Assembly (NCBI RefSeq): GCF_028994805.1
Contig: NZ_JAJQQP010000017.1
Location: 62,959 to 126,958 of the forward strand
DNA: 64,000 bases
Origin: Promicromonospora iranensis
GTDB taxonomy: Bacteria; Actinomycetota; Actinomycetes; Actinomycetales; Cellulomonadaceae
Direction of reading: 5' to 3'
Shown one piece after another: positions 38,196 through 62,380 of this stretch. Both the position numbers and the translations under genes were made by a program. The notes under the pieces are model-generated. The model ran no database searches, was not told where the DNA came from, and saw nothing but the letters and a program-made list of their open reading frames with translations. Within the stretch, counting starts at the first letter, position 1. The number at the start of each line of letters is the position of its first letter.

Positions 38196-38260
38196 TGTAT
38201 CGCGGGCTCGAGCCCCTACCGGAGAACCTCCCCCGTGCTGATCCGAGATCGGAGAAATCC

Positions 38261-39440: not shown

Positions 39441-39451
39441 CCGGAGCACAA

Positions 39452-39923: not shown

Positions 39924-39944
39924 GGAACCTCCAGTGTCGGGATG

Positions 39945-40002: not shown

Positions 40003-40024
40003 GCACAAGAGTTGATGGAGAGTC

Positions 40025-40402: not shown

Positions 40403-40482
40403 CGCAACCGGTTCTGACAGCGGTCCGCGCGCGGGACACCTCAGATTCTCGGCTCGTCACCACAGACTGGAGACCACGGACC

Positions 40483-44086: not shown

Positions 44087-44092
44087 CGCGCG

Positions 44093-44098
44093 AGCCTA
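44093..44098 (-). promoter_or_regulatory. -10 hexamer of leaderless HEAT-gene transcript
   Basis: TAGGCT on the minus strand, six bases before the GTG at 44086. Confidence 0.5.
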
Positions 44099-44330
44099 TC
44101 CGCTGACCACCGGCCGAGGCCGACATCCGAGCGATGGCGAGACGTCGACCAACCAGCCAAGACCCTGGGGCGCAGGTGTCAGCCGCATCGCCGGGACAAC
44201 CTGGCAGGACGGTGGTGTCGGGGGCGCGTCGACCGGCAACCGTTGATGGGGTTGTAGGCCATGTCAATTGTTACTAGGCGGGCACGGCGGGCTGCGATGG
44301 CGGTAGGTTCACCGGCATGGCTGGGATCGC

Positions 44331-47300: not shown

Positions 47301-47966
47301 ACAGACGGCACCATTCGAGTGTGGCATCTGAAGACCGGGAAACTTCTAGCCACCCTCATTGACCGGATCCACGTCGTATGGGCGGTGGCCGTGTCACCAG
47401 ATGGACGACACATCGTCTCCGGCAGCACCGACGGAACTATCCGGATCTGGGATCTGAAGAACCGGAAGCTGAGCGCCAAACTGATCGGACACACGGACGT
47501 TGTGGCAGCTGTTGCGACAACCCCGGACGGACAGCAGGTGGTCTCGGGTAGCGCGGACAGAACAGTGCGGGTTTGGGATATGAAGTTACATACCCTGCAG
47601 GCCACACTGAAAGGTCACACTGGCGCCGTCCGAGCTGTCACCGTTACGCCGGACGGGCAGCACATCATTTCGGCCGGCGCTGACAGGACCGTCCGGATCT
47701 GGGACCTGGTCGACAAGACCCTAAGGGCCACCCTGATCGGTCACACAGACGCAGTAGTAGCCGTCGCGGTGACACCGGACGGGAAACACATCATCTCGAC
47801 CGGCCCCGATCGAACGATCCGGACATGGGACTTGAACAGGCAGACCGCACTGGACGTGATCCACGCTCCAGACCAGGTCCAAGCAGTCGCCACGTCAGGG
47901 AGTCGCATGTTGCAGGCGTTGACAAGCGGCGTACTCGCGATCGACATCTCAAGACGGTCCGGATGA
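44331..47966 (+). CDS. Membrane-anchored STAND (NACHT/AAA-like) NTPase with WD40 repeats
   Basis: A 1211-residue protein. Two predicted membrane helices at the N-terminus (about 13-35 and 52-71) are followed by a P-loop NTPase: Walker A GSPGTGKS at 152-159, Walker B LTILVDGLDEA at 238-248, then a helical winged region to about 620. Residues 624-1211 are 13-14 WD40 repeats (GHTD..V.SVAVTPDG pattern, most ending in WDL), enough for two seven-blade propellers. This is the STAND layout of ligand-sensing switch proteins; many act in phage defence or signalling. The membrane helices take the place of an effector domain. It stands alone, followed by a copy of the dispersed repeat. Confidence 0.9.
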   Translation: MKRSTNGGGMRVLRGALWLVLMVAIAVAVTITPVLQGRVPADGSIWTVVRSSWFLAAVAVAVVIAAAGMLQVRLQGTASPHMPENAGSVGEGAATAQRVATPHLVAAGNGVSNVGQDGSFFRGRRAALREINGWLSAPATDQVNPRVLIVTGSPGTGKSAVLGRVLMAANDTSRSVSDDQLDEVAAPPGSIGIAIEAAGKSPLDLGRQIAQAVGHDIEEVKELAAALASAHGSGDRSLTILVDGLDEAAASGAGDVVSSVLRPISQMEARYGIRLLLGTRASHRGDDLIHPFPGALTIDLDSDRYFEVEDLKQYALARLQQDRPDNPYLDGGLAGPVADEIAVRSNRNFLVAGLIAHRHGKDDAVAVDSPDVQVPADLMDVLRDYLRRVPLLGGLPARQILKPLAYAEAPGLPVGLWSAALRALFGIETNELQLRTYARELARDYLIETVPAASDGQPVYRMFHQALSDSLVGVDPSVPESVSDNARITTAFLGAAPTDWSSAPPYLLRSLASHAAAARMLPELIELLETSNYPLHADLARLQTALQADDSEGVTRYRRLLGLMPASDGMGPAERAAAWSVTEALRGVPTARNRFAVMAKELGASHAGAWGAAWTSEAMANVLTGHTDVVLSVAVTPDGQTVVTGSGDGTVRIWDLQAGAPSAVLSSHIRFAASAVVSPDCRHAIISSEDGQVLVWNIQTRTHRTVFVAGDIGETSSLAVTPDGGRLVVGRWAVRYQDLRTGDRETVLDQHVGAIRLVTSDGQHVVTGGYHSFLDEGESNDDGVPLQVWDLETGTERTVQAGQIDRIGSIAVSPDGRFVVSGGGEKTMRIWDLKTGIERTVYTEHSSRIGSIAVAPDGRHAVIGSYDGTLRLWDLFTETELTRFAGHTDVVRSVAVTPDGRRAISGSDDHTVRVWDLRVRDAQSIRVGHTDIVRAVALTSDQRHVITGSSDGTARVWDLLDGTQRVTLTGHTGWVLAVATAPSGHAVTAGTDGTIRVWHLKTGKLLATLIDRIHVVWAVAVSPDGRHIVSGSTDGTIRIWDLKNRKLSAKLIGHTDVVAAVATTPDGQQVVSGSADRTVRVWDMKLHTLQATLKGHTGAVRAVTVTPDGQHIISAGADRTVRIWDLVDKTLRATLIGHTDAVVAVAVTPDGKHIISTGPDRTIRTWDLNRQTALDVIHAPDQVQAVATSGSRMLQALTSGVLAIDISRRSG

Positions 47967-48360
47967 CGTCAGGGCCCTCTGCCAGCGTGTGAACCGGGGT
48001 CGAGCGCGCGTTCGCGATCACCTGCACTGTCCACTACCTGGCGAATCCCTGCCTGGGACGTGGGAGGGGTCGAGCTGCAGTCCGACGGCGGCTCGCGCAA
48101 TGTGCTGAGGCGATCATGGGCACCGCCCCAGTACGACTGGCTAGAAGTCCCGGGTGGGTTCTTCTTTCTCGACTCAGCGCCCAATGGAAAGCACACCCCT
48201 GCTGGATCGTCACCGATCCTAGCGTCGCGCACACGGACCCGCAGGCCAGAGCGTGCCGCGGCCAGTGCCAGGGAGGAATACGCCATCGCATCGACGGCGC
48301 TCAGCCCATGCGTACGGTGTCACCTATTCGTGCAGCAGTCCCGCTCACAGCAGGTCCCGT
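47967..48360. other. Gene-free gap holding dispersed-repeat copy A
   Basis: No gene recognised between two convergent genes, the WD40 STAND and the OLD-type gene. The right half is the repeat at 48173-48342. Confidence 0.6.
48173..48342. repeat. Dispersed ~170-bp island repeat, copy A
   Basis: First of three copies. It starts CTCAGCGCCCAATGGAAAGC and ends near GTGCAGCAGTCCC. It holds the invariant GGACCCGCAGGCCAGA framed by GCACAC and GCGTGC. It also has a small hairpin, GGATCG-TCAC-CGATCC. It lies 18 bp before the stop of the OLD-type gene and 206 bp after the STAND-WD40 gene. Confidence 0.9.
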
Positions 48361-50112
48361 TCACCCGTGGTCCCGCGTTGTCGGGATGGACTCGGCGTTG
48401 GCGCCATCGATGAACTTGATGAGCGCCCGCACATGCACCGCTAGATCGTACAGCATCGGAACCTTGCTATCCCAGCGCTCGACGGTCTCGCGCGCGACTC
48501 GCACCTTTGACACAGACTCTAGACCAGTCTTCGCCTTGGCCAAGGGGTTCTCGTACTTTCCCGCTGCCTTCGGCGTCGCCGTTCGGTGAGCAGCACGCAG
48601 AGCCTCCGCGAGCAGATCTGCCGGCACATAGTTCTCGACGGTGTATCCCTCGGTGATCCAAATCAGCCCGCCCTCGCCTTGAAGTTCTTCCCGGATCCGC
48701 CGCTTAGAAGCGTTGAGACGCTTCCCCTTCTCGGTCCGATCAGAGTCAATGACGATCGCCATGTTGCGGTTGAGCCGCCGCAGTTTGATGAACTCATCAA
48801 GCATCTCGTCGTCGACATCCTTCGTCGTGAGGTGGTTCAGCAGCCCACCGCCGTAGAACATGATCGAATAGTGGACGCCCTCCACCAGCCGGTCACTTAC
48901 TGACTGGCGGATCCAGTGGTTGATATAGATCCGGTCAGATGGCCCCTCGACCCAGATCACCGCATTCGCCTGCACGATGTCCGAAGCTTTGTACCCCAGG
49001 TCAGCACAAATCAGGGACCTGTCCATCGGCGTGATCGCAGGGCTGACGCGTGTGCCCTCTGGCGACCACGTCGCATGAAAGATCGTGGCGATACTGCTGT
49101 TCACCAAATGAGCCGAGTGGGTAGCGATGAGGTACTGGTTGTTGGTCTTCTCATCCAAGTAGCGCAGCAGCTTGCGCTGCAGGACTGGATGGAGGTGGAT
49201 CTCCGGTTCTTCGATGCAGATCAGGCGCTCCTGGATCAGCGTCGCTGCGGCGGCCATGATCACAACCTGATGGATTCCGGTGCCGAGGTTTTCTAAGGGC
49301 AGGACAGTGTCCCCGCGGACTACGTTGAGGGTTCCCCCCTCGCTCGGTACCTCCAGGATGATGCTCGGGTCGTCGAGAACACCACGCACGAAGTCTGTGA
49401 TCTGGGTCCAGAGTCGCCGCGCTTTGTTCTGTACTGCTAGAGGGCGGTCCAGCTTCCGGAGCTCATCAATGAGTCCAGACCCGTCATAACGTTGCTCGCC
49501 ATCGATGGGGGGCCCGATCTGTCGGAACGCGTCGATCGTTTCGACGCGTACGCTGTCGTCGGGCTGGAGCGCTGTAAGTAGGGCCATCGTTCGCGTTGCG
49601 GCGACGCTCGATTGGCTCCCCTTGTACTCCGGCAACAGCTGCGACAACGCTCGTTGTGCGTGGATGTCGAGGCCGGCCGCGGTGGCCTCGATACCGTCGG
49701 TTTCGAGTCGCCACCCCCGACGAACCCACCTGCCGCCGCCTCCGGAGAGGTTTCCCTGTATCTGCTCGAAGTGTGACCACACAAGGTCATCGTCCGTCCC
49801 TGGGACCCGAGTTGTTCGCACGATGTCGACCAGGTGGTGGGGTTGGTTGACCACCTGGAATTTCTCCGCGAGATCGTCGTCTGAAACCCTTCTGGCAACC
49901 GCCATGCGGAGCAGGGGTGCCTCCGCGAGATCGACAGGCCTGTCCAGTTCCTCCAGTTCGATCCTCTTACCGGAGCACAAGAGCTGAGCGAAGCGCAGCA
50001 CGTTGGACTTACCGACGTTGTTCTGGCCCACGATGAGGTTGACCTTGTCCAGAGGGCCGACGTACTGCATCTCGCTGCCGAACGAACGGTAGCCCGCGAT
50101 GCCGAACCCCAT
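48361..50112 (-). CDS. OLD-family ATPase with TOPRIM nuclease domain
   Basis: A 583-residue protein. It has an N-terminal ABC-type ATPase (GIAGYRSFGSE; Walker A GQNNVGKS at about 29-36; signature region LENLGTGIHQ; Walker B LICIEEPEIHLHP near 297-309; switch His in IATHSAHLV). The C-terminal TOPRIM domain has VEGPSDR near 388-394 and IVIDSDR near 450-456, the acidic metal sites. This is the class 1 OLD architecture, a single-gene nuclease linked to phage defence; no UvrD-like partner is adjacent. I chose ATG 50112 with GGAG six bases upstream; ATG 50124 and GTG 50190 are in frame. Confidence 0.9.
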   Translation of the reverse strand: MGFGIAGYRSFGSEMQYVGPLDKVNLIVGQNNVGKSNVLRFAQLLCSGKRIELEELDRPVDLAEAPLLRMAVARRVSDDDLAEKFQVVNQPHHLVDIVRTTRVPGTDDDLVWSHFEQIQGNLSGGGGRWVRRGWRLETDGIEATAAGLDIHAQRALSQLLPEYKGSQSSVAATRTMALLTALQPDDSVRVETIDAFRQIGPPIDGEQRYDGSGLIDELRKLDRPLAVQNKARRLWTQITDFVRGVLDDPSIILEVPSEGGTLNVVRGDTVLPLENLGTGIHQVVIMAAAATLIQERLICIEEPEIHLHPVLQRKLLRYLDEKTNNQYLIATHSAHLVNSSIATIFHATWSPEGTRVSPAITPMDRSLICADLGYKASDIVQANAVIWVEGPSDRIYINHWIRQSVSDRLVEGVHYSIMFYGGGLLNHLTTKDVDDEMLDEFIKLRRLNRNMAIVIDSDRTEKGKRLNASKRRIREELQGEGGLIWITEGYTVENYVPADLLAEALRAAHRTATPKAAGKYENPLAKAKTGLESVSKVRVARETVERWDSKVPMLYDLAVHVRALIKFIDGANAESIPTTRDHG

Positions 50113-50343
50113 GAGTAGCTCCATGAGCAGCCATCCTGGCAGCGGCTGCTCGTCGTGAACAGCTATAGCGGTCGGACCCAGTGACATCACAGTAACGTGA
50201 TGACTTGGTGCGCGGCGGTCGAGGCGAACGCGGCAAGAGCGGCAGGGCGAAGGCTATTATGGCCTCTGCTCGAAGATTCCGCCTTGGGTAGGAGATGGTC
50301 GCGTCCGGTCCTGGCGTGCACGTGAAGTGCGCTTCTATGGTTC

Positions 50344-50363
50344 CCGAAGTCGATCGACTTCGG
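50344..50363. repeat. Perfect 20-bp palindrome
   Basis: CCGAAGTCGATCGACTTCGG, self-complementary with no spacer, 230 bp upstream of the OLD-type gene. It could be a protein-binding site or a recombination core. Confidence 0.7.
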
Positions 50364-50962
50364 CTCGCCCTCGGTGATGCCGGATGCGGACCTCGTTGCC
50401 TTCGTCGGGATTGCGGCCTGGTCCGATGAGGACGGTGGATCTGTCATCTGCGAGGAACGTACGGAAGCCGGCCTTCCGACGGGACAATGCTGCGTACGCA
50501 GACAGCCCCAACCTGGTTCAGCCGGTCGACTGAAGCCGCACCCTTCACTGGCTGCCCGACGGCACCATTTGGGCGGCAGGAGAGCCGGTGACATCGTGCG
50601 GCCGGATGCTGCTGGCCTCGGTGTCGGGACGGGGACCTGGCACCGTCTGCTATTCGAAGCATGCGATATTCCTTGCGACAGCCGAGCACGGGTGCGACTG
50701 ACGTACTGCGGGTCATTCGGTTACCGCAGGCCTGACCCCGTGCCCCGCGTCCGCGCCCCCACTGTCAAGCAGCGATAACGGGTCCCCTGCAGGTGAGCAG
50801 CTCTGGCGCGCCGCAAGTACGCAACTGCGTCAGCGGAGTCGCTTCCCGCACGTGTCGAGCCCGACAGCCACCCCTCGCCGTCGCGGAATCACGTGACACA
50901 GTGAGCGCCCCGGCATCAAGCCTCCAGCCGACCCTGGCGAAACCCGGCAACTCCGAGTGCCA

Positions 50963-50992
50963 TCGCGATTTCCCGTGGCTCAGCACCCATAA
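50963..50992. repeat. Possible truncated copy of the dispersed repeat edge
   Basis: CGCGATTTCCCGTGGCTCAG followed by CACCCATAAC closely matches the sequence spanning the left boundary of copy B (GCGATTTCGCGCGCCTCAGC then ACCCAAT). The match stops where the repeat core would begin. It lies 50 bp before the stop of the PD-(D/E)XK-like gene. Confidence 0.4.
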
Positions 50993-51041
50993 CGGCCTCC
51001 ATGATCGCAATCCCCACGGCCTCAGCCTTGCGGTCGTTCAG

Positions 51042-52295
51042 TTAGGACGGAGTCGGAGGGGTGGTCAGATCAGATGCCCACGACCATCTCGTGATTGCCT
51101 TGCGCATCGCCTCACGGACACCTTCAGCCGTCGCGCGCCCCTCCTGGACGTCACGCCAGGCCCGGAAGAGGTCGCGGGTGTCGATCAGGCAGCCGTCTGC
51201 GCTGGTCAGAGGCTTGAGGTCGAGCTCGTTAGGAATGGCCTTCTCGCGCGTCGAGGGGTCCTTGGTACGCCACCCGTTGACGATGTGCCACACCACATCC
51301 GGCGCTCTTCTGTGCTCGGCGGCGTACGCGACGGAGGGGCGGCCGGCGATCTGGGAGACGTCGGTGACCTTCGCGCCCTTCGTGTAGCCCTTGACCTCCG
51401 CGAGACACGCCCAGCCACCATCGGTGACGAGAAGGTCCTCGAGCTTGGCACCGGTCTTCTGGTCATGGTGGTCGTCCCGGTCCTCAACGGTAAACCCGAG
51501 GTCGCGCAACAGTGCGAGGACAGCGGCGACGAGGTCCGCGCCGTCGCTCGTCAGGACGCGTTGCGGCCCAGCCGCGGCGGTCACAGCGGCCTGGTCCAAC
51601 GCCGTCTTCGCCGCCACTTCCTGAGTAGCCAGTCGCTCGAGCGCGGCCACACGCTCAAGGGCGATCGCGCCGAGCTCGCCTAGCGACACCCGCATGTCAG
51701 GCGTTGCCCACGCCTCTCGGCGCTGCCAGTCCGGTGGAGCCGGGAACCGGGTCGGCTGCAGGCCGCGGAGGTAGTCGATGAACGCTGACAGCCACTCCCC
51801 ATGGGAGGTCACGTAGTCAGGGAGAGCGAGGATGAGCGCGCTGCCGTACGTCGACATGATCCCCGCGTACGGAGCCCGCTCCGCACCGATGGTGGCGATC
51901 GCCTGGAACCACTCGCGTGGCTGGCGGCCAAACACGTCCCGCGGTGGCGCGGGGGCAGGGCTCACGATGGTGCGATCGACGAGCGACGCAAACTCAGCGG
52001 GGCAACCCTCGTCGCGTTGAACAACCCGGGCGTGTGACTCATGTTGGCGTATGGCAGTGATGCCCGTCCCAGTCTTCGCATTCTCGAACCGCTGGCCGCC
52101 AAATGAGAGCACGTTGACCCCGCTCGGGCCTTCAGGCTCGCTGTCGCACGACACGATGAGATCCCAGTCGGTCGGGTGGATCGCGGGGACATCGTGCCCC
52201 AGGCGGCCGATGGTGGGGGCGTAGCGGGTCAGAGACTCGAAGAGCTCGTCGGACACCGACTCGAACAAGATCCGTGGCCGCGGGGTGTCGTCCAT
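51042..52295 (-). CDS. PD-(D/E)XK nuclease-like protein of unknown family
   Basis: A 417-residue protein. The N-terminal 200 residues are of no family I recognise. The C-terminal part (about 255-375) looks like a restriction-endonuclease fold: GADLVAAVLALLRDLGFTVE helix, KLEDLL with an acidic residue near 285, then AEVKGY near 299-304 as the E-x-K motif, and a later helix. It is probably a DNA-acting defence protein, but catalytic assignment is inference. It is a single gene in the accessory island, with dispersed-repeat copy B 303 bp upstream of its start. Confidence 0.72.
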   Translation of the reverse strand: MDDTPRPRILFESVSDELFESLTRYAPTIGRLGHDVPAIHPTDWDLIVSCDSEPEGPSGVNVLSFGGQRFENAKTGTGITAIRQHESHARVVQRDEGCPAEFASLVDRTIVSPAPAPPRDVFGRQPREWFQAIATIGAERAPYAGIMSTYGSALILALPDYVTSHGEWLSAFIDYLRGLQPTRFPAPPDWQRREAWATPDMRVSLGELGAIALERVAALERLATQEVAAKTALDQAAVTAAAGPQRVLTSDGADLVAAVLALLRDLGFTVEDRDDHHDQKTGAKLEDLLVTDGGWACLAEVKGYTKGAKVTDVSQIAGRPSVAYAAEHRRAPDVVWHIVNGWRTKDPSTREKAIPNELDLKPLTSADGCLIDTRDLFRAWRDVQEGRATAEGVREAMRKAITRWSWASDLTTPPTPS

Positions 52296-52991
52296 GACGC
52301 CGACGATAGCGGGCTACACCGACACCTTTTCGCGGTACGTCCTGGACGAGGTAGACGATGCCCGGAGCGAGTGCCGTCAAGCAGGCGAGCAACGACCGGT
52401 TCAGCCCGCCCGTCCGTTCCCGCACCGCACGAAAATTTCGGCATCTCGCGAAACACAGCATGTCGCGTCCGAGCCCGCAGCTCTCCCTGCCCCGCGTCGA
52501 CCCTGCGAGGGCACGTCCCCCATCAACGGGACTTGCAGGGTCTCGTCATGTTCTCGCATCTTGGCATCGACGTATGTGTGATTGCGATTTCGCGCGCCTC
52601 AGCACCCAATGGAAAGCACACCCTGTTGGATCGCCACCGATCGTAGCGTCGCGCAGGCGGACCCGCAGGCCAGAGCCTGCCACGGCCAGTGCCGGGCAGG
52701 AGCACGCCATCGTATCGGCGACTCTCGGCCCCCACGCGTCCGGTGTCACCTATCCGTACAGCGGTCTCCGTGCGACTGCCGGCCGCACAAGGTCACTGGC
52801 CTACGGACCAAGTGTCGAGCATTCACGACGCAACCAGGAGGCTCGGTCCGGGCGTGAGGCAGTGGCGCGAGTGTGCCGCCACAACAGCCGCATGGATCGA
52901 ATGGGTCAGATCCGCAACTTGCCGGACGGCGGCACCGGGGCCACCGCCTGGACGACTCCTAGGGCGTGTTGCTAAACCGCTTCCGTTCGTT
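52296..52991. other. Gene-free stretch holding dispersed-repeat copy B
   Basis: About 700 bp with no recognisable gene. Its middle is the repeat at 52598-52769. Sequence left and right of the repeat does not resemble that around copies A and C, apart from the short edge similarity described for 50963-50992. Confidence 0.6.
52598..52769. repeat. Dispersed ~170-bp island repeat, copy B
   Basis: Second copy, starting CTCAGCACCCAATGGAAAGC. The invariant GGACCCGCAGGCCAGA is framed by GCAGGC and GCCTGC, a perfect 6-bp stem. The fourth pair is G-C where copies A and C have C-G, a compensatory change. The small hairpin reads GATCG-CCAC-CGATC. Confidence 0.9.
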
Positions 52992-53765
52992 TCATTGCCA
53001 TGCGCGAACGTGGTGGATCGTGGCGGACTTGGGATAGTTGCCGCCGCGTGGTCCGATCTCGAAGAGGTCAATCATGAGGAACAGCGGATAGTCGGGAGCC
53101 TGTTGGATGCGCCGCAGCGCGCGGCCTTGGCACCCGATCACAGTTTCATCCTCGCCCCAGACCACCGTCCAGGTGTGGGGTGAGGATGCGTTCAAAGGGA
53201 TCGCGACCTCGCTCATGTCGGTGGTGAGGTGTGGGTCGTGGTGCGCTTTGATGCCGGTGCGGACCACTGTGGTTTCCCCGATGGAGTCGGAGTCGATCTC
53301 GAAGATGCAGATCTCGCCGGACTCTGTCGGGGATCTGTGCTCCGTTCCGATGAGCCATGCCGCGACCATGCAATTAGCGTCTTGGCTCGCGGAAACGGTG
53401 ATCTCGACTCGTCCGCGTGAGGGTGTGAACAGGAGCCGTTGTGGTGTCTCGGTGCGGACGTCGAGATCGACGCGGTGGCGATGCGTCCCGAGTGCGGAAC
53501 CGACTGGCCCTGAATAGACACCGGTCTGCAAGTTCGAGACGCGCAAAGGAGCATCTTCGAGGCGCCAATCGGGCTGGTCAGAGTCGATCCGCAACTCGAC
53601 TCCGTCCGCAACGACCTCGTAGTGCGCTCGCGCCCGCTCAGAGGTCGTCCACTGCGGCAAATAGCTCGCAATCCACCGTTTCGAGTTCAGGCCCGCGCTG
53701 AAGTCGTCGTCGAAGTCCGGTTTACGGTTCGGTGCGGCAGGAAGGCTCTCCGGCGAGTTCGGCAT
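52992..53765 (-). CDS. GH16-like jelly-roll protein, probably intracellular, altered catalytic motif
   Basis: A 257-residue protein with a concanavalin-like fold of GH16 type (FDDDFSAGLNSKRWIASYLPQW; SNLQTGVYSG; HTWTVVWGEDETVIGCQG). The GH16 motif E-x-D-x-x-E reads EICIFE near 149-154, with Cys in place of the central Asp. No signal peptide follows ATG 53765; a longer frame upstream lacks one as well. It may be a catalytically weak or lectin-like relative, or a detached copy in the island. Function unknown. Confidence 0.7.
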   Translation of the reverse strand: MPNSPESLPAAPNRKPDFDDDFSAGLNSKRWIASYLPQWTTSERARAHYEVVADGVELRIDSDQPDWRLEDAPLRVSNLQTGVYSGPVGSALGTHRHRVDLDVRTETPQRLLFTPSRGRVEITVSASQDANCMVAAWLIGTEHRSPTESGEICIFEIDSDSIGETTVVRTGIKAHHDPHLTTDMSEVAIPLNASSPHTWTVVWGEDETVIGCQGRALRRIQQAPDYPLFLMIDLFEIGPRGGNYPKSATIHHVRAWQ

Positions 53766-53896
53766 GAGAAATGATTGCACGCGGCCCAGCCAGTGCAGGG
53801 TCGAGGCGAGGCAGAGACCGGCATGGCAGTTGCGGGCGACCTTGTCTGGTCGCATGGCGATGCCGCGCCATTGCTTGAGCATTCGACAGCTCAGCC

Positions 53897-54352
53897 ATGG
53901 CGGTCGTGGGGCCCAGTTCTACCCGGGCTGCTGGCCAGTCGTTCACCGTGCTCGTGGTGGGCCCTTCAGGTGTCGGGAAGTCGACACTCATTGGCTCGTT
54001 GAACGAGATCCGACCATCGCGCGCCGATGCACACAACGCGGCAACGAGAGCCAGCACCGAAATCCCGTCCGTGCACGCCAGTACAACGCCGCAAGACCTC
54101 GGCCACGTCGAGCTCGCGGACAACACGGACGTGCACTTGGTCGCGGTTCCAGCCCAGCGGCGCTTCTGGGAACCACGGCTCTCCGACAGGTCGGTCGGCA
54201 TCCTCATGGTGATCGACACCCGGCACTTGGAAGACAGCTTCGAGCTCCTTGACCAAGTCGAGCTGCGAACACGCCTCCCGTTCGTGGTTGTCATCAATCG
54301 ATTCCCCGATGCGCCCGACTACTCGGAGAAGCGCGTTCGAGACGCCCTAGAT
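53897..54352 (+). pseudogene. Truncated conservon-type (CvnD-like) GTPase
   Basis: From ATG 53897 the frame matches the small Ras-like GTPase of actinomycete conservons: Walker A VVGPSGVGKST (about 21-30), a switch region, RRFWEPRLSDRSVGILMVIDTRHLEDSFELLD and VVVINRFPD. The homology ends at VRDALD (about 54352), where the C-terminal 35-40 residues should be. From there an unrelated gene is read on the opposite strand (stop at 54347). None of the usual conservon partners (histidine kinase-like, roadblock, DUF742) is present. It is probably a recombination remnant. Confidence 0.75.
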
Positions 54353-54670
54353 GTTGGTCGCCGTGACGTTCCATGTCGTTCCCCCGGCGACGGCCGCCGG
54401 CGTGGGGGGTGCGGTGCTGTAGTGCGCCTCGGTGTGGTCCAGACTGGCACCGCCCGGGAATGGGCTCTGCAGGACGTCGACCTTTGTAACGTGGACCGTT
54501 TGTGTCCGACCGTTCGGCAGTTCTTGCTCGATACGGTCGCCCTCCTGGACGTCCGCGTCGACGGGGAGCGCGTAGCGATTGGTGAGGTCCATCGCGCGCA
54601 TGGGTAGCCGCTGCTCGTGAAGGCCGGTACCTCGCACGACGGTAATCTGGAGGTTGTAGTTTGGCGTCAT
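54347..54670 (-). CDS. Hypothetical 107-residue protein
   Basis: The frame from ATG 54670 encodes a beta-rich protein (NYNLQITVVRGTGLHEQRL; GDRIEQELPNGRTQTVHVTK; LDHTEAHYST) with good codon bias. It is of a type found as singletons in actinomycete accessory regions; I do not know its function. A leaderless TACGAT -10 lies six bases before the ATG. Its stop overlaps the broken end of the conservon GTPase on the other strand. Confidence 0.7.
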   Translation of the reverse strand: MTPNYNLQITVVRGTGLHEQRLPMRAMDLTNRYALPVDADVQEGDRIEQELPNGRTQTVHVTKVDVLQSPFPGGASLDHTEAHYSTAPPTPAAVAGGTTWNVTATNI

Positions 54671-54676
54671 TACCGG

Positions 54677-54682
54677 ATCGTA
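54677..54682 (-). promoter_or_regulatory. -10 hexamer of leaderless transcript for the 107-residue protein
   Basis: TACGAT on the minus strand, six bases before ATG 54670. Confidence 0.45.
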
Positions 54683-54951
54683 AAAGCCGCCTCCGACACA
54701 CCGCGAGCGTCGGCACCAACCTCACTCGGGGGGTTCGCGCCCAGCGCCGGATCCTGCCGCCTGCGGCTCGCCACGTGCTCACCGGCCGCCGCGGACCCGG
54801 TCGGCCGGCGGTCCGGGGCTCGACGGCCGACTGCTGTGCGAAGCCCCAGAATCCCGCCATTCCAAGGTAGACCCGCCCCGCGCCCACTCGACAGCGCGCA
54901 CCCGCTTGTTTATTCGGGTGTGCACGTTGTGGGAGCCCTGTTCGTCAACAT

Positions 54952-55010
54952 CGCTGGCACCTGACCCGTGCCCGAAACACGGGCCAGGTGCCAGGTGCCA
55001 GGTGCCAGCG
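54952..55010. repeat. Hairpin with triple 7-bp tandem repeat
   Basis: CGCTGGCACCTG at 54952-54963 can pair perfectly with CAGGTGCCAGCG at 54999-55010, or form a longer nearly perfect stem with the first copy (CAGGTGCCAG at 54985-54994) including CCCGTG/CACGGG. The right arm is expanded as three tandem CCAGGTG units (54984-55004). Confidence 0.75.
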
Positions 55011-55492
55011 AATCAGCAGCTACGACGGCGTGGGTAGCTGAAGGTCTACACCGGTTGCACCCTTGGGGCGAGCAGTCACCGGTCTGCCGGCCGATTACCT
55101 CTCCGGCGGCGCACGCGCTCGGGCAGCTTGCTCACCCGGCACGCGGGCGCTGTCCACCAGCTCGGAGACCGGTTGGGCCGACGTCCAGCGAGCCGCCACC
55201 GGTCCGGCGGCCGACTACCTCTTCGAGAACATCTGGGGGTTGCCGGCGTACTGCACAGAAACGGGGTTGGTTGGCGCGCCTCGGTTCCACGGGGGCGTTC
55301 CGGTCCGCAGACTCCCGGGCCCACTGCCTCCTCGCCACCGCCCTTGCGCCACCCTCCTTGGCTGGGATACAAGGAAGTGAACGCTCTCCGCGTGAGCCGC
55401 TGTCCGCATGCAAGCCGGCTCCTCAAATGGACAGCGAAACCCATGGCCGTATGACGCCGTTTCCTATTTGAGATATTCGGCAACGTAGAGAT

Positions 55493-55513
55493 TTGTCCAC
55501 AGGCTTGTCCACA
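55493..55513. promoter_or_regulatory. Pair of DnaA-box-like sequences (possible origin remnant)
   Basis: Two exact TTGTCCACA nonamers, 55493-55501 and 55505-55513, 12 bp apart, matching the actinomycete DnaA-box variant. Near-matches follow at about 55647 (CGTCCACA) and 55742 (TTGTCCACC, next to the palindrome GACAAATTTGTC). The local sequence is less GC-rich than its surroundings. It suggests a replication origin of an integrated element or a DnaA-binding control site. Confidence 0.5.
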
Positions 55514-56098
55514 GGGTGGTGGTTTGCCCTCCTCCTCGACACCGCTGGATGTGAGGCATAGTGCGGATTTTTGGCGTCTCTACGACCTGGCTCGAGCACG
55601 CTTGAAGGCGAGCCGATAGGCGCTGGCGGGCCGATTTCCCGAGCACTCCGTCCACAGAGGTGGTGCGGGGCCCGGGTGGTGTCGGTCGTCCGGGTTATCT
55701 TGATTGCTGAAAGGCGAAGTCCCACATGAAGAACGACAAATTTGTCCACCGACACGGCCACCCCGGGCCGGCACAGTTCTCTCCGATGGTCACATAGACC
55801 ACTAGACGAGCGAGTGTCGGTGGTTGCGGTTACTGTGACCCGCAAGGCTCCGGCTGGTGGTGACTTCGGTCGTCGCCCAGGCGGACAGCACAAAGCCCGA
55901 GCGTTGGAGCGCTCGGGCCGAGTGCGACAACTCAACAACCGAAGACCGTGCTGTCGAGGCGTCAGGAGTTCTGCTAGGAACTCTGTCAGTCTCGCATGTC
56001 CGAACCGGCCCAGGGAACTGGGGTGGTTTACCAATGCTGTGAAGAACACCGCAGAGGTGGACGCACGGTCACCCGATTCTCCGAAGGAGAAGAAGTTA

Positions 56099-56728
56099 GT
56101 GACCGATGTTCCCGAGATCTACGTATCCCAGCTGACGCACTACATCGCGGCGAAGACCGCACCGGAAGCGGACCGCGCCATCGCGGGGATCCGTGACCAG
56201 CTCGCGCATGACTACGAGCACTGGAAGGACCACTGGAAGCCGGTCAAGGACGCTCTGTTCCGCGACCGGCGGGGCAGCCGTGACGGCCAGGAGCTGGCCG
56301 ACATCGTCGACCGTGCGGCAGTGAACCGGCAGGCGTCCTATGCCGTGGCGGCCGCTCGGTGGGCCCAGCTCGCCGGGTGGTGGGAGGGGCTGGAGAGCGA
56401 GCGGCTCGGGACCCGGGCGGTGCAGGTCGGGGGGCTGAGCGTCAAGGTTCCCCGGCTGTGTGCTGAGCGGCACCCGGGCGGCGAGCTCGAGGTGCTGTAC
56501 GTGCGGTTCAACCAGGACCGCCTGCCCCTGCACGTCGTGTACGGCGTGATGCGCATCGTCCAGCTGGCCCACCCCACCGCCGACATCACGTTCGTGGACG
56601 TGCACCAGCGCGCCACGCACAGCTCGCGCGGGCGTGACCTGAGCGTCTACGACGCCTGGATCACGCAGGCCGGCACCGACCTCGCGCAGTTGCTCATCAG
56701 CGGCCAGAGCCAGGCCACCGCCGCGTAG
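56099..56728 (+). CDS. Hypothetical 209-residue protein
   Basis: The frame from GTG 56099 (GAAGGAG nine bases upstream) encodes a soluble alpha/beta protein (YVSQLTHYIAAKTAPEADRA; WKDHWKPVKDALFRDRRG; VKVPRLCAERHPGGELEV; ITFVDVHQRATHSSRG). No domain that I recognise. The open frame continues far upstream without plausible coding sequence, so the start is set by the Shine-Dalgarno. It is located between origin-like sequences and mobile-element gene remnants. Confidence 0.68.
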   Translation: MTDVPEIYVSQLTHYIAAKTAPEADRAIAGIRDQLAHDYEHWKDHWKPVKDALFRDRRGSRDGQELADIVDRAAVNRQASYAVAAARWAQLAGWWEGLESERLGTRAVQVGGLSVKVPRLCAERHPGGELEVLYVRFNQDRLPLHVVYGVMRIVQLAHPTADITFVDVHQRATHSSRGRDLSVYDAWITQAGTDLAQLLISGQSQATAA

Positions 56729-57056
56729 CAGCAGCACCCCGGGAGTGGTGATCTCGTCGTGGCCGGCTCCCCGTGCCAGCGAGATCGCCACTCCCGTTCT
56801 CGCGCCTGCCGACAAGCCACACAAGGTGGTCGATCGGGGCCTGTACGGCGCCGCACCGCGAGGATCGTGAGCTCCTCACGCGTCATGGCGCGAGCGTGTG
56901 AGGGCTGCCCCTGAGCGTGTGATTGTCGGCATCTTCGCGGAAAGTGCGCACCTACCGGAACGGGAAAACCCGCCGCGCGTCGCTGGCTCGCCTGCCCGGA
57001 GGCTTGCGATGGCATCGTGGACCAGCGCCAGCGCGCTGCGGGCACGTGCCTAGCGG
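56729..57056. other. Gene-free gap
   Basis: About 330 bp with nothing recognised except a 14-codon frame from ATG 57009 ending just before GTG 57057, possibly a leader of the next gene or its damaged N-terminus. Confidence 0.4.
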
Positions 57057-57498
57057 GTGCTCCGGCCCGACGCGCACGAGCGCTGGCTCGGCCCCTGTCC
57101 GATTCCGTCCTGCCCCGGCGAGATCCGGCTCGGCGACGACCAGACCGCGACCGCGTGCGGCGTCTGCGGAGCGTTCGTCACCAAGGAGCAGCAGCAGGGC
57201 TACCTCACCGAGACGATGGACGAACGGCTCATGTCCGTCAGCGAGCTCGCCACCGCGCTCACCATCGTCACCGTCCTCCTCGTCAAGTACGAGACTATGC
57301 GGACCTGGGCCCGCAGCCGCAACGCCACCCGGCGGCTGGCGCTTGCCCGTCCGCCTCCACGAGCGCCACGACGACGGGACGCCCTGGCGATGCATCCCCC
57401 GGCTGACGCCCGGCACCGGACTGTACTCGTTCGCCGACGCTCTCACCCTCGTCGCCAGGCGCGAGACTCGGGTCCTGGTGGGAGGATCGGCAGCATGA
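57057..57498 (+). pseudogene. Zinc-ribbon/HTH mobile-element protein, frameshifted
   Basis: From GTG 57057 the frame has a zinc-ribbon-like pattern (CPIPSCPGEI, then CGVCGAF) and a helix-turn-helix-like segment (MSVSELATALTIVTVLLVKYETMRTW). At about 57310-57335 the coding sense moves to the next frame (LPVRLHERHDDGTPW, GLYSFADALTLVARRE), which ends at 57498 and overlaps the DUF6221 start by four bases. Together they give a protein of about 147 residues like the small DNA-binding proteins of actinomycete integrative elements and phages. The frameshift may be decay, sequencing error or programmed. Confidence 0.65.
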
Positions 57499-57848
57499 GC
57501 ATCAACCGGCAGGCCATCACCTACCTGGAAGCTCGACTCACCGAGGGCGAGGAGTTCGCCAAAGCGGCCGAGGCTGTCCCTCAAGAAGGCCAGCGGAGAC
57601 GCGCGGCGGTCGACAAGAACTACATGACTCACTGGGGCCCCGCTCGCGTGCTTGCAGAGATCGAGGCACAGCGGCAGATCCTCAAGGAGTACAAGAAGTT
57701 CGACGAGGTGGCGAACGAGGCGGCGAGAGTCCCGGGTGGCGATGCCTCGCTCGTGGCCGCCTTGGCGGCTGGGCTGGAGTTGGCCGTTCGAATCCACCTC
57801 GCGGTTCACAGTGACCGCTCGGATTTCGGCTCGGATTGGCTCACGTAA
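57495..57848 (+). CDS. DUF6221-like protein
   Basis: A 117-residue protein with the core of DUF6221 (YLEARLTEGEEFAKAA; HWGPARVLAEIEAQRQILKEY), a small family of unknown function typical of actinomycete phages and integrative elements. ATG 57495 is four-base coupled to the frameshifted upstream gene and has GGAGGA upstream. It supports a mobile-element origin of this segment. Confidence 0.75.
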   Translation: MSINRQAITYLEARLTEGEEFAKAAEAVPQEGQRRRAAVDKNYMTHWGPARVLAEIEAQRQILKEYKKFDEVANEAARVPGGDASLVAALAAGLELAVRIHLAVHSDRSDFGSDWLT

Positions 57849-57963
57849 ACATCACACCCGCTTTCCTAAGGTAGGTGCGCGGCACACGCACCACATCCGG
57901 AGTACAGAGCCGGTCTTGGCCTCGGAGCGCAGTTGCGCAATCGGCCCAGAGGCAGCCCTGACG

Positions 57964-57981
57964 CCGGCGCCTCGGCGCCGG
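57964..57981. terminator. Compact GC hairpin
   Basis: CCGGCGCC, 2-base loop, GGCGCCGG, 116 bp after the DUF6221 stop and 45 bp before the next gene. It is a possible terminator or processing site. Confidence 0.45.
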
Positions 57982-58013
57982 TTGGGTGCCTGGCCGCAGG
58001 TATGCCGGTCGGA

Positions 58014-58019
58014 TAGCGT
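58014..58019 (+). promoter_or_regulatory. -10 hexamer of leaderless transcript for the 84-residue protein
   Basis: TAGCGT six bases before ATG 58026. Confidence 0.45.
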
Positions 58020-58025
58020 GCCGCC

Positions 58026-58280
58026 ATGACCGAGACACCGGACATCCGCAGCGAAGAGACCAGTAGCGACACCCAGATCGTGCAGCTCATCCCCGCCAAC
58101 GGATGGGTCGCCGTCTACAAAGACGACGACACCGAGCTTCGAGCGCCGCTGGTGGCCTGGGCACTACGGCGCGACGGCGAGGTCATTCCGCTGGACACCG
58201 ACCCCGAGGGCGACGTCGGCGACCCCCGAAAGACCAGAAACTTCCACCGCGTCGAGCGGGTTACTGACAGGCACAACTAG
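58026..58280 (+). CDS. Small 84-residue protein of an actinomycete-specific type
   Basis: An acidic protein (IVQLIPANGWVAVYKDDDTELRAPLVAWALRRDGEVIPLD, then RNFHRVERV). Similar small proteins occur in actinomycete genomes and elements; function unknown. The start is supported by the leaderless -10. Its last codons overlap a second frame that continues to 58560. Confidence 0.68.
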   Translation: MTETPDIRSEETSSDTQIVQLIPANGWVAVYKDDDTELRAPLVAWALRRDGEVIPLDTDPEGDVGDPRKTRNFHRVERVTDRHN

Positions 58281-58560
58281 GCTCTACGAAGCCGGCAGCG
58301 GCTCCAGCTTCTACGGGCCTCGCCAGGGCGGCGCCTACGGGAGGCTGCACGCCTGGCAATCGATCGCCGCGCTGACCAGTGCGCCAAATACGGCAACCCC
58401 CGACGACGTCGCCAACCTGGCCCGCGCCTGCCGATGGTTCGCCCTGGACACAGCCAGTAGCTGGTTCTCGGAGGTGTGGGAACCATCCGACGTCGCCCTG
58501 GCCTGCATCGGCCCCGAGCCGGAACGCGTGGCCGTCATCGCAGCGACCGACACTGACTGA
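58264..58560 (+). CDS. Hypothetical protein of about 98 residues without a canonical start codon
   Basis: An open frame with normal protein composition (RLYEAGSGSSFYGPRQGG; LHAWQSIAALTSAPNTATPD; NLARACRWFALDTASSWFSE; DVALACIGPEPERVAVIAATD) runs to 58560. No ATG, GTG or TTG lies at its beginning; the first plausible codon is CTG 58264, overlapping the end of the 84-residue gene. It may use CTG, be reached by frameshifting from that gene, or have lost its ATG. No family recognised. Confidence 0.45.
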   Translation: MTGTTRLYEAGSGSSFYGPRQGGAYGRLHAWQSIAALTSAPNTATPDDVANLARACRWFALDTASSWFSEVWEPSDVALACIGPEPERVAVIAATDTD

Positions 58561-58707
58561 AGCCACCCAGCAGCAGCTGCGGCGGCTCAGCCGCCCTCGG
58601 TCGCACAGTGATCAGCAGATGCATATTCATTTACTTAAAGAGTAGAACCGTGGCCAATCCATGCCACTTTCATTGTGCTTCCGGCGCGTTTCCCGTAGAT
58701 ATGTCTC

Positions 58708-61362
58708 ATGGATGGGGTGCGGATACGGCCGGGGTGGTGGTTGATCGCAGGTAGCGTCGCGGCGGTCGCGGCGGGGATCTTCACGTTCGTTGACGACAGC
58801 GCTCCGTGGCTGGTTCTGCTTGCCTTCGCCACGGCGTGCGTCTCCCCCGCCGCACCGTTCGTGAGTCGTTGGTGGGAAGCGCGCCAGGCCCGAAGTGTGG
58901 CCCGCCAGGCTGTCATCGAGTCCTCCGCCCTGCTGCGCCAAGAAGGTGGGCCCTCCAGCTTGCTGGCTCCGGACCGGCAGGTCGTGCCGTTCCGGGGCAG
59001 GGCGGACGAGCTGGATGCGCTGGTCAGGTGGTGCGAAGGAGAAGGCTCACCGTTGCGTCTGGTCACCGGGCCTGGTGGGGTTGGCAAGAGTCGGCTTGCT
59101 GCCGAGCTCAAAGAACTGATGACTTCCGGTGGCTGGGAGTGTGTGGCCGTCGGCGAGGAACAGGAGCCGTCCATCTTGGGGCGAGTCCGCGGTGCCACGG
59201 ACGATCCGGTTCTGCTGATCGTTGATTACGCCGACACTCGCCACGAGCTCGACGACCTTGTGCGGCAGGTCGCCGCTGACCCTGTCGGCGTGCGGGTCCT
59301 GCTCATCGCGCGCAGCGCTGGTGAATGGTGGCAACGGCTGAAGGCCGGCGGACCGCAGGTCCGGGATATGATCCATGGCGCGTACGACGGCGCCGACCTC
59401 CCGGTACGCGTCGATACCGCGGTGACCGACGAGCAGATCGTCGCCGACGCCGTCGCCGCGTTCGCCCGACAGCTGGACCTCCCGGTCCCTGACTTCGAGC
59501 TGCGCGGCCGCACACCCGCACCGGGCCGCATCCTTGACCTGCACGCCGCGAGCCTGGTCGCGGTCCTGGACGCACAAAGCGGCCACACCGGGAGTGGACC
59601 GCTGGCCGTGGACGTCTCCGACATCTTGGCCGACCTGCTTGAGCATGAGCAACGGCACTGGATCGGCACGGCCGACCTCGCCGGCCTCATGCACGGACCG
59701 GACGGTCTCACCGTCGAGCTCTTGCGCCAGATCGTCGCAGCCCTCTACGTCGCACCGCCCGCCGATGAACATGACATGCGCAGGCTCCTGGCCCGGGTCG
59801 ACCCGAGTGCCGCCACGCCCAAAATCCTGCATTGGTTGCGCGACCTCTACCCGCCGCGCAACACGGAACACTGGATCGGGACCCTGCAACCGGACCGGAT
59901 GGCCGAACTGCACCTCGTCAACGAGCTCAGCGCCTCGCCCGGCCTGGCCGCCGCCCTGCTCGACGATCTCGACGGCCGCAACGCCCGGCACGCTGTCGCC
60001 GTGCTCGCTCGGTCCGTCGCCGACCATTTCTCCGACCAGAAGATCCGCGCCCGTGCGCTGCGGCTCTTGGACCGGACGGTCTCCGCCCTACCTGACAGCC
60101 TCGAGCTCCTCCGGTCGGTCTCCGCAGTGATCCCCTACCCGTCCGAAGTGCTGACCCAGTCGGACCTCTCCCTGCTCAACCGGATCCTCGGCCTCATCGA
60201 CCCGGCAGACGCCGCCGGACGAGCATGGGTGCTGCACGACATCGGCACGCGCCTGTACCACCTCGGGCGACGCGCCCAGGCGATCGAGCCCTTGACCGAA
60301 GCCATCCAGGAACGACGCGCCCTGACGGGCACAGACCCGATCAAACACGGATCCGAGCTGGCAGCGTCCCTGCGCTACCTCGGCGTCGTGCTGTCCGAAC
60401 TCGGACGTGCGCACGACGCCTTGCCCCCGACCATGGAAGCCGTCGAGATCGAACAGCGACTGGTCCGTGCAGACCGCGACACCTACCTCCCGTACCTCGC
60501 CCGCATCCTGTGTGACCTCGGCACGCGCTACCACGAAGCCGGCTTGCCCGGTGAAGCGATCACGCCGCTGCAAGAGTCCGTCAGGATCAACGAGCAGCTC
60601 GCCAAGGTCGATCCCGAACGAACCAACCCTCATCTGGCGCGATCCCTGATGAACCTCGCGATCGCCCTCAACCTGATCGGTCGGCCCGCCGCTGCACTGC
60701 CACCAATCCGGAAGGCCGTCGAGATCCGCAGGGTTCTGGCGCGGGACAACCCTGACGGGGACCTCGTCTTCCTCGCCCGCGCCCTGACCGAGCTCAGCTC
60801 CTGTCTGGTGCTCAACGCCCGCCCCCAGGACGGCGCCGCGGCCGGACAGCAATCGGTGGACATCCGCCGGCAGCTCGCCGAGACGAACCCCGAACGCCAC
60901 ACCGCCGGCCTCGCCCTGTCCCTGCGCCAGACCGCAACGGCACTGCGCTTTGCCGGCAGCCAAGCCGAGGCCGCCCTCTACTACCGGGAGGCCATCACCA
61001 TCGAACGTGGACTGGTCGCGACACATCCCGGGTCCGGGATGGCGACCGCTCTGGCTGAGTCACTCACTAGCTACGCTGCCATGCTGATCTCGCTCCAGCA
61101 ACCATCGGCAGCGCTCCCCCTCGCTCACGAAGGAGAACGATTGATCGCCTGGCGGACGAGCGAGGCCAGCCCCGCGGCGCTGCGGCCCGCGGCACGTTCC
61201 CTCTCCAACGTCCTGACGAACATCGCCGACGTCTTGGACGCCAACGAGCAAACCAGCGAAGCACAAGCACACCGACGAGAAGCCACCGCCCTCCTCGGCG
61301 GCACCCTCTTCGAATCTCCCGCCACTGGCTTAGCAGACACACCACCCCGGCACGAGGAATGA
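58708..61362 (+). CDS. Membrane-anchored STAND NTPase with TPR repeats
   Basis: An 884-residue protein. Two N-terminal membrane helices (about 9-28 and 33-52) are followed by a basic amphipathic stretch, then a P-loop NTPase: Walker A GPGGVGKS at 121-128, Walker B VLLIVDYADT at 168-177, LLIARSAGEWW sensor strand, and a helical winged domain. TPR repeats run from about 505 to 840 (repeating A..YL..VL..LGR..EALP..EAV.I...L pattern). It is the same plan as the WD40 protein at 44.3 kb with a different sensor: a candidate defence or signalling switch. It is preceded by an AT-rich promoter-like stretch (58620-58640). Confidence 0.88.
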   Translation: MDGVRIRPGWWLIAGSVAAVAAGIFTFVDDSAPWLVLLAFATACVSPAAPFVSRWWEARQARSVARQAVIESSALLRQEGGPSSLLAPDRQVVPFRGRADELDALVRWCEGEGSPLRLVTGPGGVGKSRLAAELKELMTSGGWECVAVGEEQEPSILGRVRGATDDPVLLIVDYADTRHELDDLVRQVAADPVGVRVLLIARSAGEWWQRLKAGGPQVRDMIHGAYDGADLPVRVDTAVTDEQIVADAVAAFARQLDLPVPDFELRGRTPAPGRILDLHAASLVAVLDAQSGHTGSGPLAVDVSDILADLLEHEQRHWIGTADLAGLMHGPDGLTVELLRQIVAALYVAPPADEHDMRRLLARVDPSAATPKILHWLRDLYPPRNTEHWIGTLQPDRMAELHLVNELSASPGLAAALLDDLDGRNARHAVAVLARSVADHFSDQKIRARALRLLDRTVSALPDSLELLRSVSAVIPYPSEVLTQSDLSLLNRILGLIDPADAAGRAWVLHDIGTRLYHLGRRAQAIEPLTEAIQERRALTGTDPIKHGSELAASLRYLGVVLSELGRAHDALPPTMEAVEIEQRLVRADRDTYLPYLARILCDLGTRYHEAGLPGEAITPLQESVRINEQLAKVDPERTNPHLARSLMNLAIALNLIGRPAAALPPIRKAVEIRRVLARDNPDGDLVFLARALTELSSCLVLNARPQDGAAAGQQSVDIRRQLAETNPERHTAGLALSLRQTATALRFAGSQAEAALYYREAITIERGLVATHPGSGMATALAESLTSYAAMLISLQQPSAALPLAHEGERLIAWRTSEASPAALRPAARSLSNVLTNIADVLDANEQTSEAQAHRREATALLGGTLFESPATGLADTPPRHEE

Positions 61363-61611
61363 ACCGCATCCAACTGACCAAGGACACCGAAAAGCTCAAG
61401 AATACGCTTTTGGGAGTTGCACACGAGCAGGACGCCGGAACGCGTAGATCCAACGCAGCGGCACCGCACCATCCGAGTCGGAGCTAGGAGCGGTACAGGG
61501 GCAGGACGAAACAGACATGCCCCCGGTACATGCTTGCGGAGTGTGGCCAATCCAAATCCGTCGCAGCACCTGCCGACAAGCGCGACCCACCGCTCCGCCT
61601 ACGGTTGCACT
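61363..61611. other. Gap after the STAND-TPR gene
   Basis: 249 bp with no recognised gene; it contains the leaderless promoter of the next small gene at its end. Confidence 0.4.
61600..61605 (+). promoter_or_regulatory. -10 hexamer of leaderless transcript for the 49-residue protein
   Basis: TACGGT six bases before ATG 61612. Confidence 0.4.
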
Positions 61612-61761
61612 ATGACCGTCTCCGTAGAGCAGCTCGCTGAACTCGACGCGATGTTCTTCAGGGCCGCAGGCCATTGGCCGGACCGTCCGAGACTGGATCC
61701 GGTGCTCGTCGCCAAGTCCAGAGAACTCGCTGAGGCGCTCCTCGAAACCAACCAGCCCTGA
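61612..61761 (+). CDS. Small 49-residue protein
   Basis: A short acidic helical protein (MTVSVEQLAELDAMFFRAAG, then VLVAKSRELAEALLETNQP). No family known. Coding status is supported by the leaderless -10 at the right distance and good codon use. It lies between the STAND-TPR gene and dispersed-repeat copy C. Confidence 0.5.
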   Translation: MTVSVEQLAELDAMFFRAAGHWPDRPRLDPVLVAKSRELAEALLETNQP

Positions 61762-61866
61762 TCACGTGTCGAACTGGCATTTCCGGCGCACGCGTCCAGC
61801 GGAGCATGCCCGTTGATAGGCCGGCTCGGCACGGCGGCCGGTGAGTGCGGTTCCGGTCTTTCGAGC

Positions 61867-62033
61867 CTCAGCGCCCAATGGAAAGCACACCTTGCTGGAT
61901 CGTCACCGATTCTAGCGTCGCGCACGCGGACCCGCAGGCCAGAGCGTCCCACGGCCAGTGCAGAGCAGGAGTACGCCATCGCATCGACGACGCTCGGCCC
62001 GGCGTCCGGTGTCACTTATCGGTGCAGCAATCC
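61867..62033. repeat. Dispersed ~170-bp island repeat, copy C
   Basis: Third copy, starting CTCAGCGCCCAATGGAAAGC. The invariant GGACCCGCAGGCCAGA is framed by GCACGC and GCGTCC (one mismatch). The small hairpin reads GGATCG-TCAC-CGATTC, still pairable as RNA through G-U. A four-base gap relative to A and B lies near position 62001. It is placed 106 bp after the 49-residue gene. Confidence 0.9.
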
Positions 62034-62041
62034 CTTAGGCA

Positions 62042-62128
62042 CCGCGATCGACGGTTAGCGGCCGCACGACCACACAGTCTGGGATGTGCTCAACCTCCTG
62101 CGTACGTGTGTGGGATGCACCGACCAGA
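62042..62128. other. Short gap between repeat copy C and the immunity-like gene
   Basis: Nothing recognised; no clear terminator for the toxin/immunity genes. Confidence 0.4.
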
Positions 62129-62380
62129 TCACGCCGTCCCGGCCGCGCCCCGAAGCCGTCGGGCGATCACGAAGTCATCCGCAAGAAGGCTGCCCCGAGC
62201 AGGAGAACGCGCATCGTCGAGCACAACGACTACGACCTCGGCCCCAGGATCAAGGGCGGCAGATCCGGTCTTCGTGTTGTCGATGAGTACGTCCGTCCCA
62301 TCGGAGATGACTACGATCGCCCCCCAGGGCATTCGGCGATCCACTGTGGCCGTGTACTCCTGATGCAGACGAGCACTCAT
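62129..62380 (-). CDS. Probable immunity protein, small OB/S1-like
   Basis: An 83-residue protein from ATG 62380 (SARLHQEYTATVDRRMPWGA; VVISDGTDVLIDNTK; VVVVVLDDARSPARGSLLAD), a compact beta-rich S1/OB-like pattern. Its ATG overlaps the stop of the upstream toxin-like gene (CGATGA), the usual arrangement for a toxin and its immunity protein. The immunity role is inference from this coupling. Confidence 0.65.
   Translation of the reverse strand: MSARLHQEYTATVDRRMPWGAIVVISDGTDVLIDNTKTGSAALDPGAEVVVVVLDDARSPARGSLLADDFVIARRLRGAAGTA

Follow-up and report, generated by a model that had tools for sequence, protein, structure and literature searches.

Integron cassette arrays and staphylococcal cassette chromosome (SCC) composite islands carry head-to-tail units that lie between recombination sites, and in this they resemble the arrays that we propose here for the soil bacterium Promicromonospora iranensis and a relative. 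The stretch of DNA analyzed, hereafter called the window, is 64,000 bp long (contig NZ_JAJQQP010000017.1, positions 62,959 to 126,958) and holds an island in which a ~170-bp repeat occurs next to candidate defence genes. In the likely explanation, a family of site-specific mobile units without a recombinase of their own has been stacked head to tail, and the repeat forms the long end of each unit.

Three described systems bear comparison with these units. Tsy transposons carry the tyrosine recombinases YRec and TnsF, a helix-turn-helix (HTH) protein and cargo genes, and insert at the Walker B codons of comM; their ends are described as having no inverted repeats, with a long end of 135 bp in ZooTsy and a short end for which 20 bp suffice (PMC10293859). 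The cis-mobilizable elements (CIMEs) and tandem ssrA islands of Dehalococcoides are arranged in tandem with direct repeats of the attachment site between them, and 15 of the ssrA islands are reported to lack an integration module (PMC3146451). The Promicromonospora units are like the latter in that ends at both sides and a tandem order are observed, but differ in that no integrase-bearing helper island was identified here and in that neither the target nor the ends are related to those of Dehalococcoides. PAISt of Streptomyces turgidiscabies is a large conjugative island with its own integrase, and the repeat associated with it is a palindrome of 8 bp located where bacA ends (PMC4057263); the palindrome, the large size, conjugation and the integrase are all features of PAISt that set it apart from the units described here. 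Among the literature matches listed, none dealt with the Promicromonospora repeats, which does not mean that they are undescribed.

Structure of the repeat

The initial annotation reported three dispersed copies of the repeat in one shared orientation. These copies are genuine, at positions 48173-48342, 52598-52768 and 61867-62034 of the window (two of the ends had been placed one base off), with pairwise identities of 85-88% and the same orientation in all three. A 31-base piece of the repeat occurs three times in the window, whereas 100 shuffled versions gave no match. In the 5.84-Mb genome all three full copies (3/3) fall within the island, and a fourth match covers only 29 bases.

Every copy begins with a 25-bp core. 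The start at CTCAGC that was proposed originally is too short, as copies 2 and 3 conserve ~22 further bases to its left. At the 20 core sites that we examined, the left flank is either a ~22-bp sequence called (b) (11 sites), a different sequence called (a) (eight sites) or comM itself (one site). To the right, the core is followed by a type i interior (~168 bp to the end), by a type ii interior (~109 bp) or by other sequence. Types i and ii are 91% identical in the core and 84% identical at the right end, with interiors that resemble each other as shuffled sequence does (0.388 vs 0.389), and all four combinations of flank and interior are present. Each window copy closes on the right with 25 bp that equal a terminal inverted repeat, namely that of an IS3-family insertion sequence (IS) of 1273 bp (NCBIfam IS3, 232 bits); we refer to these 25 bp as the IS3-type end. 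No gene call encloses any of the 20 core sites, and one site overlaps a neighbouring call by 22 bp. A preferred location between convergent genes was considered and rejected as weak (9/20 sites), and so was the possibility that the copies are the 3' ends of one gene family, as the copies do not coincide with the end of any shared gene and the core is not crossed by a shared gene or reading frame.

An insert that splits comM in P. citrea

The relationship between the core and (b) is evident in P. citrea ATCC 15908 (G007). A search with (b) alone returned an exact match in contig C219 (23624-23645), where (b) adjoins the reverse complement of comM instead of the core. At this locus an insert of 12,746 bp splits comM at the exact point where its Walker B codons end. 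Specifically, the middle piece of the gene ends with ...HRGILFMDE at position 23623 and the next piece begins with APEFRSDVLE at position 36370. The comM pieces align with positions 1-32, 30-114 and 116-204 of the Pfam family Mg_chelatase (PF01078), with nothing lost at the cut between the second and third. The insert starts with the reverse complement of (b) and finishes with the reverse complement of the core, and the seven bases GAGGCGC lie in register at both junctions. As both sequences bound the split-comM insert with GAGGCGC at each junction, one and the same insert has the core at one end and (b) at the other.

Overall, the two ends bound an exact comM insert in one genome and abut each other directly elsewhere. 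Thus, copies in which (b) is joined to the core, window copies 2 and 3 included, read as head-to-tail joints between units. Matches to (b)+CTC at ≤5 mismatches among 23 loci number 13, of which 12 adjoin a core, a half-core or comM, L161 being the exception. The P. citrea insert itself reads as three units because it contains an internal half-joint (E 0.17 taken alone) and a decayed core (E 1.9e-7). Its middle unit holds the Gabija proteins GajA and GajB (PADLOC E 8.4e-181 and 2.9e-186).

Other features of this locus include a 1239-aa protein in the unit neighbouring Gabija (L094 13888-17607), a candidate defence gene product with no match in Pfam, PADLOC or NCBIfam. The same comM carries a further interruption at its Walker A codons (...LLLVGPPG), an insert of ~7 kb that extends from C219 position 16414 to ~23300 (L165, L094). 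This insert contains, by eye, a gene resembling the major facilitator superfamily (MFS) and a transposase-like open reading frame (ORF), and its ends are unlike those of the units described here.

Putative units, joints and cargo in the window

The window copies are most likely joints at which small mobile units were stacked head to tail, several of them with a known or suspected defence gene. Judged from the position of the ends, the window reads as four units, which would contain an OLD-like ATPase, a 417-aa protein, a STAND-TPR (tetratricopeptide repeat) gene in a unit of 9.3 kb and, in the fourth, an open end. The features concerned are as follows.

48173-50978: putative unit 1, with the OLD/AriA/GajA-like ATPase
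48173..48342, plus strand: copy 1, read as long end of unit 1; core 48173-48197, type i interior, IS3-type end 48318-48342, left flank (a)
48361..50190, minus strand: unit 1 cargo, OLD/AriA/GajA-like ATPase; Pfam AAA_15 and AAA_21, PADLOC AriA 3.9e-21; 3' end 18 bp from copy 1
50187..50594, minus strand: unit 1 cargo, 135-aa ORF without a match
50957..50989, plus strand: half-joint, read as unit 1 end/unit 2 start; (b) end followed by CTCAGCACCCA, remaining core lost; E 0.022 over the whole genome, 4/24 mismatches
50979-52597: putative unit 2, with the 417-aa protein
51042..52295, minus strand: unit 2 cargo, 417-aa protein without a match
52576..52597, plus strand: (b) end of unit 2, identical to the consensus
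52598-61866: putative unit 3, with the STAND-TPR gene
52598..52768, plus strand: copy 2, read as long end of unit 3; core 52598-52622, IS3-type end 52744-52768
53897..54607, plus strand: unit 3 cargo, P-loop NTPase-like protein
58276..58564, plus strand: 3' gene remnant in unit 3; a relative lies 57 bp before a core in G004 C1
58708..61362, plus strand: unit 3 cargo, STAND-like NTPase with TPR repeats; a relative lies beside a half-site in G005
61612..61761, plus strand: unit 3 cargo, 49-aa gene; a relative lies beside a core in G004
61845..61866, plus strand: (b) end of unit 3, degenerate, 5/24 mismatches
61867..62034, plus strand: copy 3, read as long end of unit 4; core 61867-61891, IS3-type end 62010-62034
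from 61867: putative unit 4, start only

The list of three copies given by the initial annotation was incomplete in that it lacked the left-half joint at 50957-50989, which is weak when taken alone. For unit 4, a search of the window and of C9:126959-159561 did not reveal the opposite end.

Distribution of the repeat and of its cargo

The comparison set comprised 13 genomes of the genus, one for each species. Core sites at ≤3 mismatches number 18 in 7 of these 13 genomes, and several of those in relatives lie beside ordinary metabolic genes. Thus, confinement to the island, as first proposed, holds for the genome of the window and fails for the family as a whole. A sequence model run over the same 13 genomes also recovered the repeat clearly in G012 (E 1.3e-7) and in G010 (E 1.2e-6), along with several weaker copies. 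In broader searches the core was found in 10 stretches of a species-level genome collection, all labelled as Promicromonospora, and in 7 of the 221 genomes of a family-level set, all from one genus; phage, plasmid and viral collections gave no match to the repeat. As far as searched, the repeat family is therefore present beyond the window and restricted to Promicromonospora. All six contigs with at least two copies (6/6, counting one decayed copy) show a uniform orientation. Clean empty sites for the copies in G002 C9 and P. citrea C2 were not found, the flanks matching scattered places. A (b)-like model match in G002 C21 that lies inside a coding frame looked like chance and was discarded.

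Several genes recur beside copies in different genomes. A gene of 325-328 aa without a Pfam match lies beside copies at unlike loci in G006 and G010 (92% identity over 1088 bp); it is whole in none of the other 11 genus genomes, six of which have matches of 28-232 bases only. The STAND-TPR gene of the window is related to one in G005 (73.7% over 2593 bp), and the 49-aa gene to one in G004 (79% over 164 bp). In G005 a half-site of flavour (a) is located directly after a type II cyclic oligonucleotide-based antiphage signaling system (CBASS) operon and before the relative of the window STAND-TPR gene. As a control for shared cargo we used 16 regions at chosen positions, comparing pairs from different genomes, which are not independent of each other. 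Shared sequence was observed in 17 of 110 copy-bearing pairs versus 6 of 107 control pairs (Fisher p 0.026). This excess is modest, so that the single cases outweigh the count.

The CBASS operon of G005 (L163 10304-14832) encodes a cyclase, E2, E1, JAB and TIR-SAVED, with 5/5 proteins matched.

Evidence for and against mobile units

Several observations weigh against reading the copies as joints between recombinase-less units. Only one of the 20 core sites lies in comM, and no target was identified for the remaining 19; comM was found neither in the window nor in C9:1-19999, 30000-49900 and 126959-159561. Eight of the 20 carry the ambiguous flank (a): in one copy it resembles comM well (equalled by 8 of 2000 shuffles), in three others weakly or not at all (101, 569 and 1130 of 2000). 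In G002 and G003 there are two (b)-like sites that are not accompanied by a core. In the window, the (b) ends at copy 3 and at the half-joint are degenerate, the unit borders rest on (b) ends with 4, 0 and 5 mismatches in 24, and copies 1-3 are not clearly each other's nearest relatives (bootstrap 0.45). As to cargo, defence genes do not occur in all modules, the 325-328-aa gene runs in opposite directions in G006 and G010, and the modest excess of shared sequence falls to 14/110 (p 0.10) once three pairs from the tRNA-Pro(ggg) locus are removed. Finally, no recombinase was found among the 19 candidate ORFs scanned in window positions 48173-64000 or among the seven in the P. citrea insert, and therefore none can be tied to the core and (b) ends.

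The IS3-type end raises the alternative that the copies are derivatives of the genus IS3-family element, akin to miniature inverted-repeat transposable elements (MITEs), that were moved by its transposase, with the island genes merely trapped between them. The 25 bp match with no mismatch in six IS ends of the own genome and with 1-3 mismatches in nine copies, type ii copies share some of the bases inward of this end with the IS (42 bp, 86%; also by eye), and a 75-bp MITE with two such ends in inverted orientation exists in G009 (L102 9800-9874; C164:23299-23373). We nevertheless regard this origin as quite unlikely, given that a single end matches the parent IS. The left end is no inverted copy of the right, since comparison of the core with the reversed right end is equalled by 12-24% of shuffles (the (b) end was compared by eye only), and no matched target duplication was seen by eye around the copies, which agrees on both points with the initial annotation. 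The comM insert is moreover bounded by the core and (b) and not by an IS end, and such an end occurs within 250 bp at only 9 of the 20 core sites and within 1200 bp at 11, two of these sites having it 0.9-1.1 kb inside, behind a cargo ORF. A known IS is thus involved solely through its 25-bp end. Because type ii copies share bases inward with the IS, this end is best read as a scar, probably of an IS3-family element that once sat at the inner border of the long end; this reading fits type ii and leaves type i unexplained.

A different alternative dispenses with any unit or dedicated enzyme and takes the copies to be old dispersed island DNA that provides homology for ordinary recombination, modules being swapped by homologous exchange. 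All four combinations of flank and interior exist, the modules on both sides of the copies differ, and copies within a genome are about as distant from each other as copies from different genomes, as such exchange would produce. We judge it unlikely all the same, as an exact split of comM with two ends and seven shared bases is not expected from homologous exchange and no long stretch is common to comM and the ends. In a third alternative, which takes up the initial suggestion of a structured RNA, the copies would encode a folded RNA with a regulatory role close to defence genes. This fits with sequence conservation at intergenic places, but it is very improbable: no Rfam match was obtained at the copies, folding was no better than that of shuffles (z -0.54, -1.38 and -0.63; z -1.38 to 0.52 in 6/6 cases), and 5 of 46 predicted pairs changed on both sides, with an unfavourable covariation term. 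Of the three initial suggestions, a recombination site that permits module swapping came nearest, the copies being best read as joints between inserted units. The idea of a non-autonomous mobile element was right in part: it is the units, more than the 170 bp by themselves, that appear mobile, and they yielded no recombinase gene.

Proposed mechanism and comparison with Tsy transposons

In the mobile-unit reading that we favour, each unit would consist of a long end (the 25-bp core plus ~85-145 bp), a short end (b) of ~22 bp without inverted repeats relative to it, and one to several cargo genes, the cargo in several cases being a defence system. A recombinase supplied in trans would cut and join at the seven shared bases GAGGCGC. 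Units would enter a target such as comM, and later ones would enter at the end of an earlier one, which could give rise to head-to-tail arrays of one orientation. The (b)-core joints resemble circle joints as well as tandem joints. Tyrosine integrases are found near some copies or (b) ends in relatives, and nothing links them to these ends.

Our best guess, by analogy, is that the enzyme would be a tyrosine recombinase of the Tsy kind (YRec and TnsF). Like the Tsy transposons (PMC10293859), the units lack inverted repeats, have one long and one short end, carry cargo genes and are inserted at the Walker B codons of comM, the last shown for the P. citrea site and not for the other 19, window included. 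Unlike them, they did not yield the YRec, HTH and TnsF gene set among the 19 window and seven P. citrea ORFs, no search aimed at TnsF having been made in the genomes; they form tandem arrays of small units; and it is the short end (b), and not the long end as in ZooTsy, that adjoins the 5' part of comM. The shared features fit Tsy in kind. Because the Tsy genes were not found and the short end lies at 5' comM, the units may be said to work like Tsy transposons, not to be Tsy transposons.

More tentatively, and as a possibility that we hold with some doubt, the units could form a cassette system that is integron-like and enzymatically different, in which a Tsy-like tyrosine recombinase that targets comM and is supplied in trans would capture small recombinase-less units serially into head-to-tail arrays. 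Some units would then each be one whole defence system, as would apply to Gabija and perhaps to the OLD-like and STAND-TPR units. How defence islands gain and lose systems one by one is an open question, and readable unit borders make the gain of a single cassette directly testable. The ends may also serve as bait, as any stretch from a core to the next (b) is a candidate cargo unit in which genes without known domains are included, such as those for the 417-aa protein of the window and the 1239-aa protein of P. citrea.

Additional observations

Six IS3-family ends lie within 100 bp of contig ends in the own genome (C4, C8, C9, C14, C16 and C31), indicating that the assembly breaks at this IS. 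No tRNA genes are present in the 64-kb window. In 3 of the 13 genus genomes a copy lies within ~2.3 kb of tRNA-Pro(ggg), a locus that looks like an island hot spot; the tRNA genes near copies are the following.

L089 8666-8741: tRNA-Pro(ggg)
L100 7660-7734: tRNA-Pro(ggg)
L160 8460-8534: tRNA-Pro(ggg)

A duplicated tRNA end near the copy in G006 C32 was considered and rejected, there being no common word of at least 12 bases. A second dispersed repeat, with a terminator-like hairpin, lies between an integrase gene and a copy in L089 (10218-10620) and has relatives elsewhere; the L089 region that holds it has matches in 8 of the 13 genus genomes. Finally, the window contains a thiamine pyrophosphate (TPP) riboswitch on the minus strand at positions 7690-7794 (Rfam RF00059, 60.4 bits).

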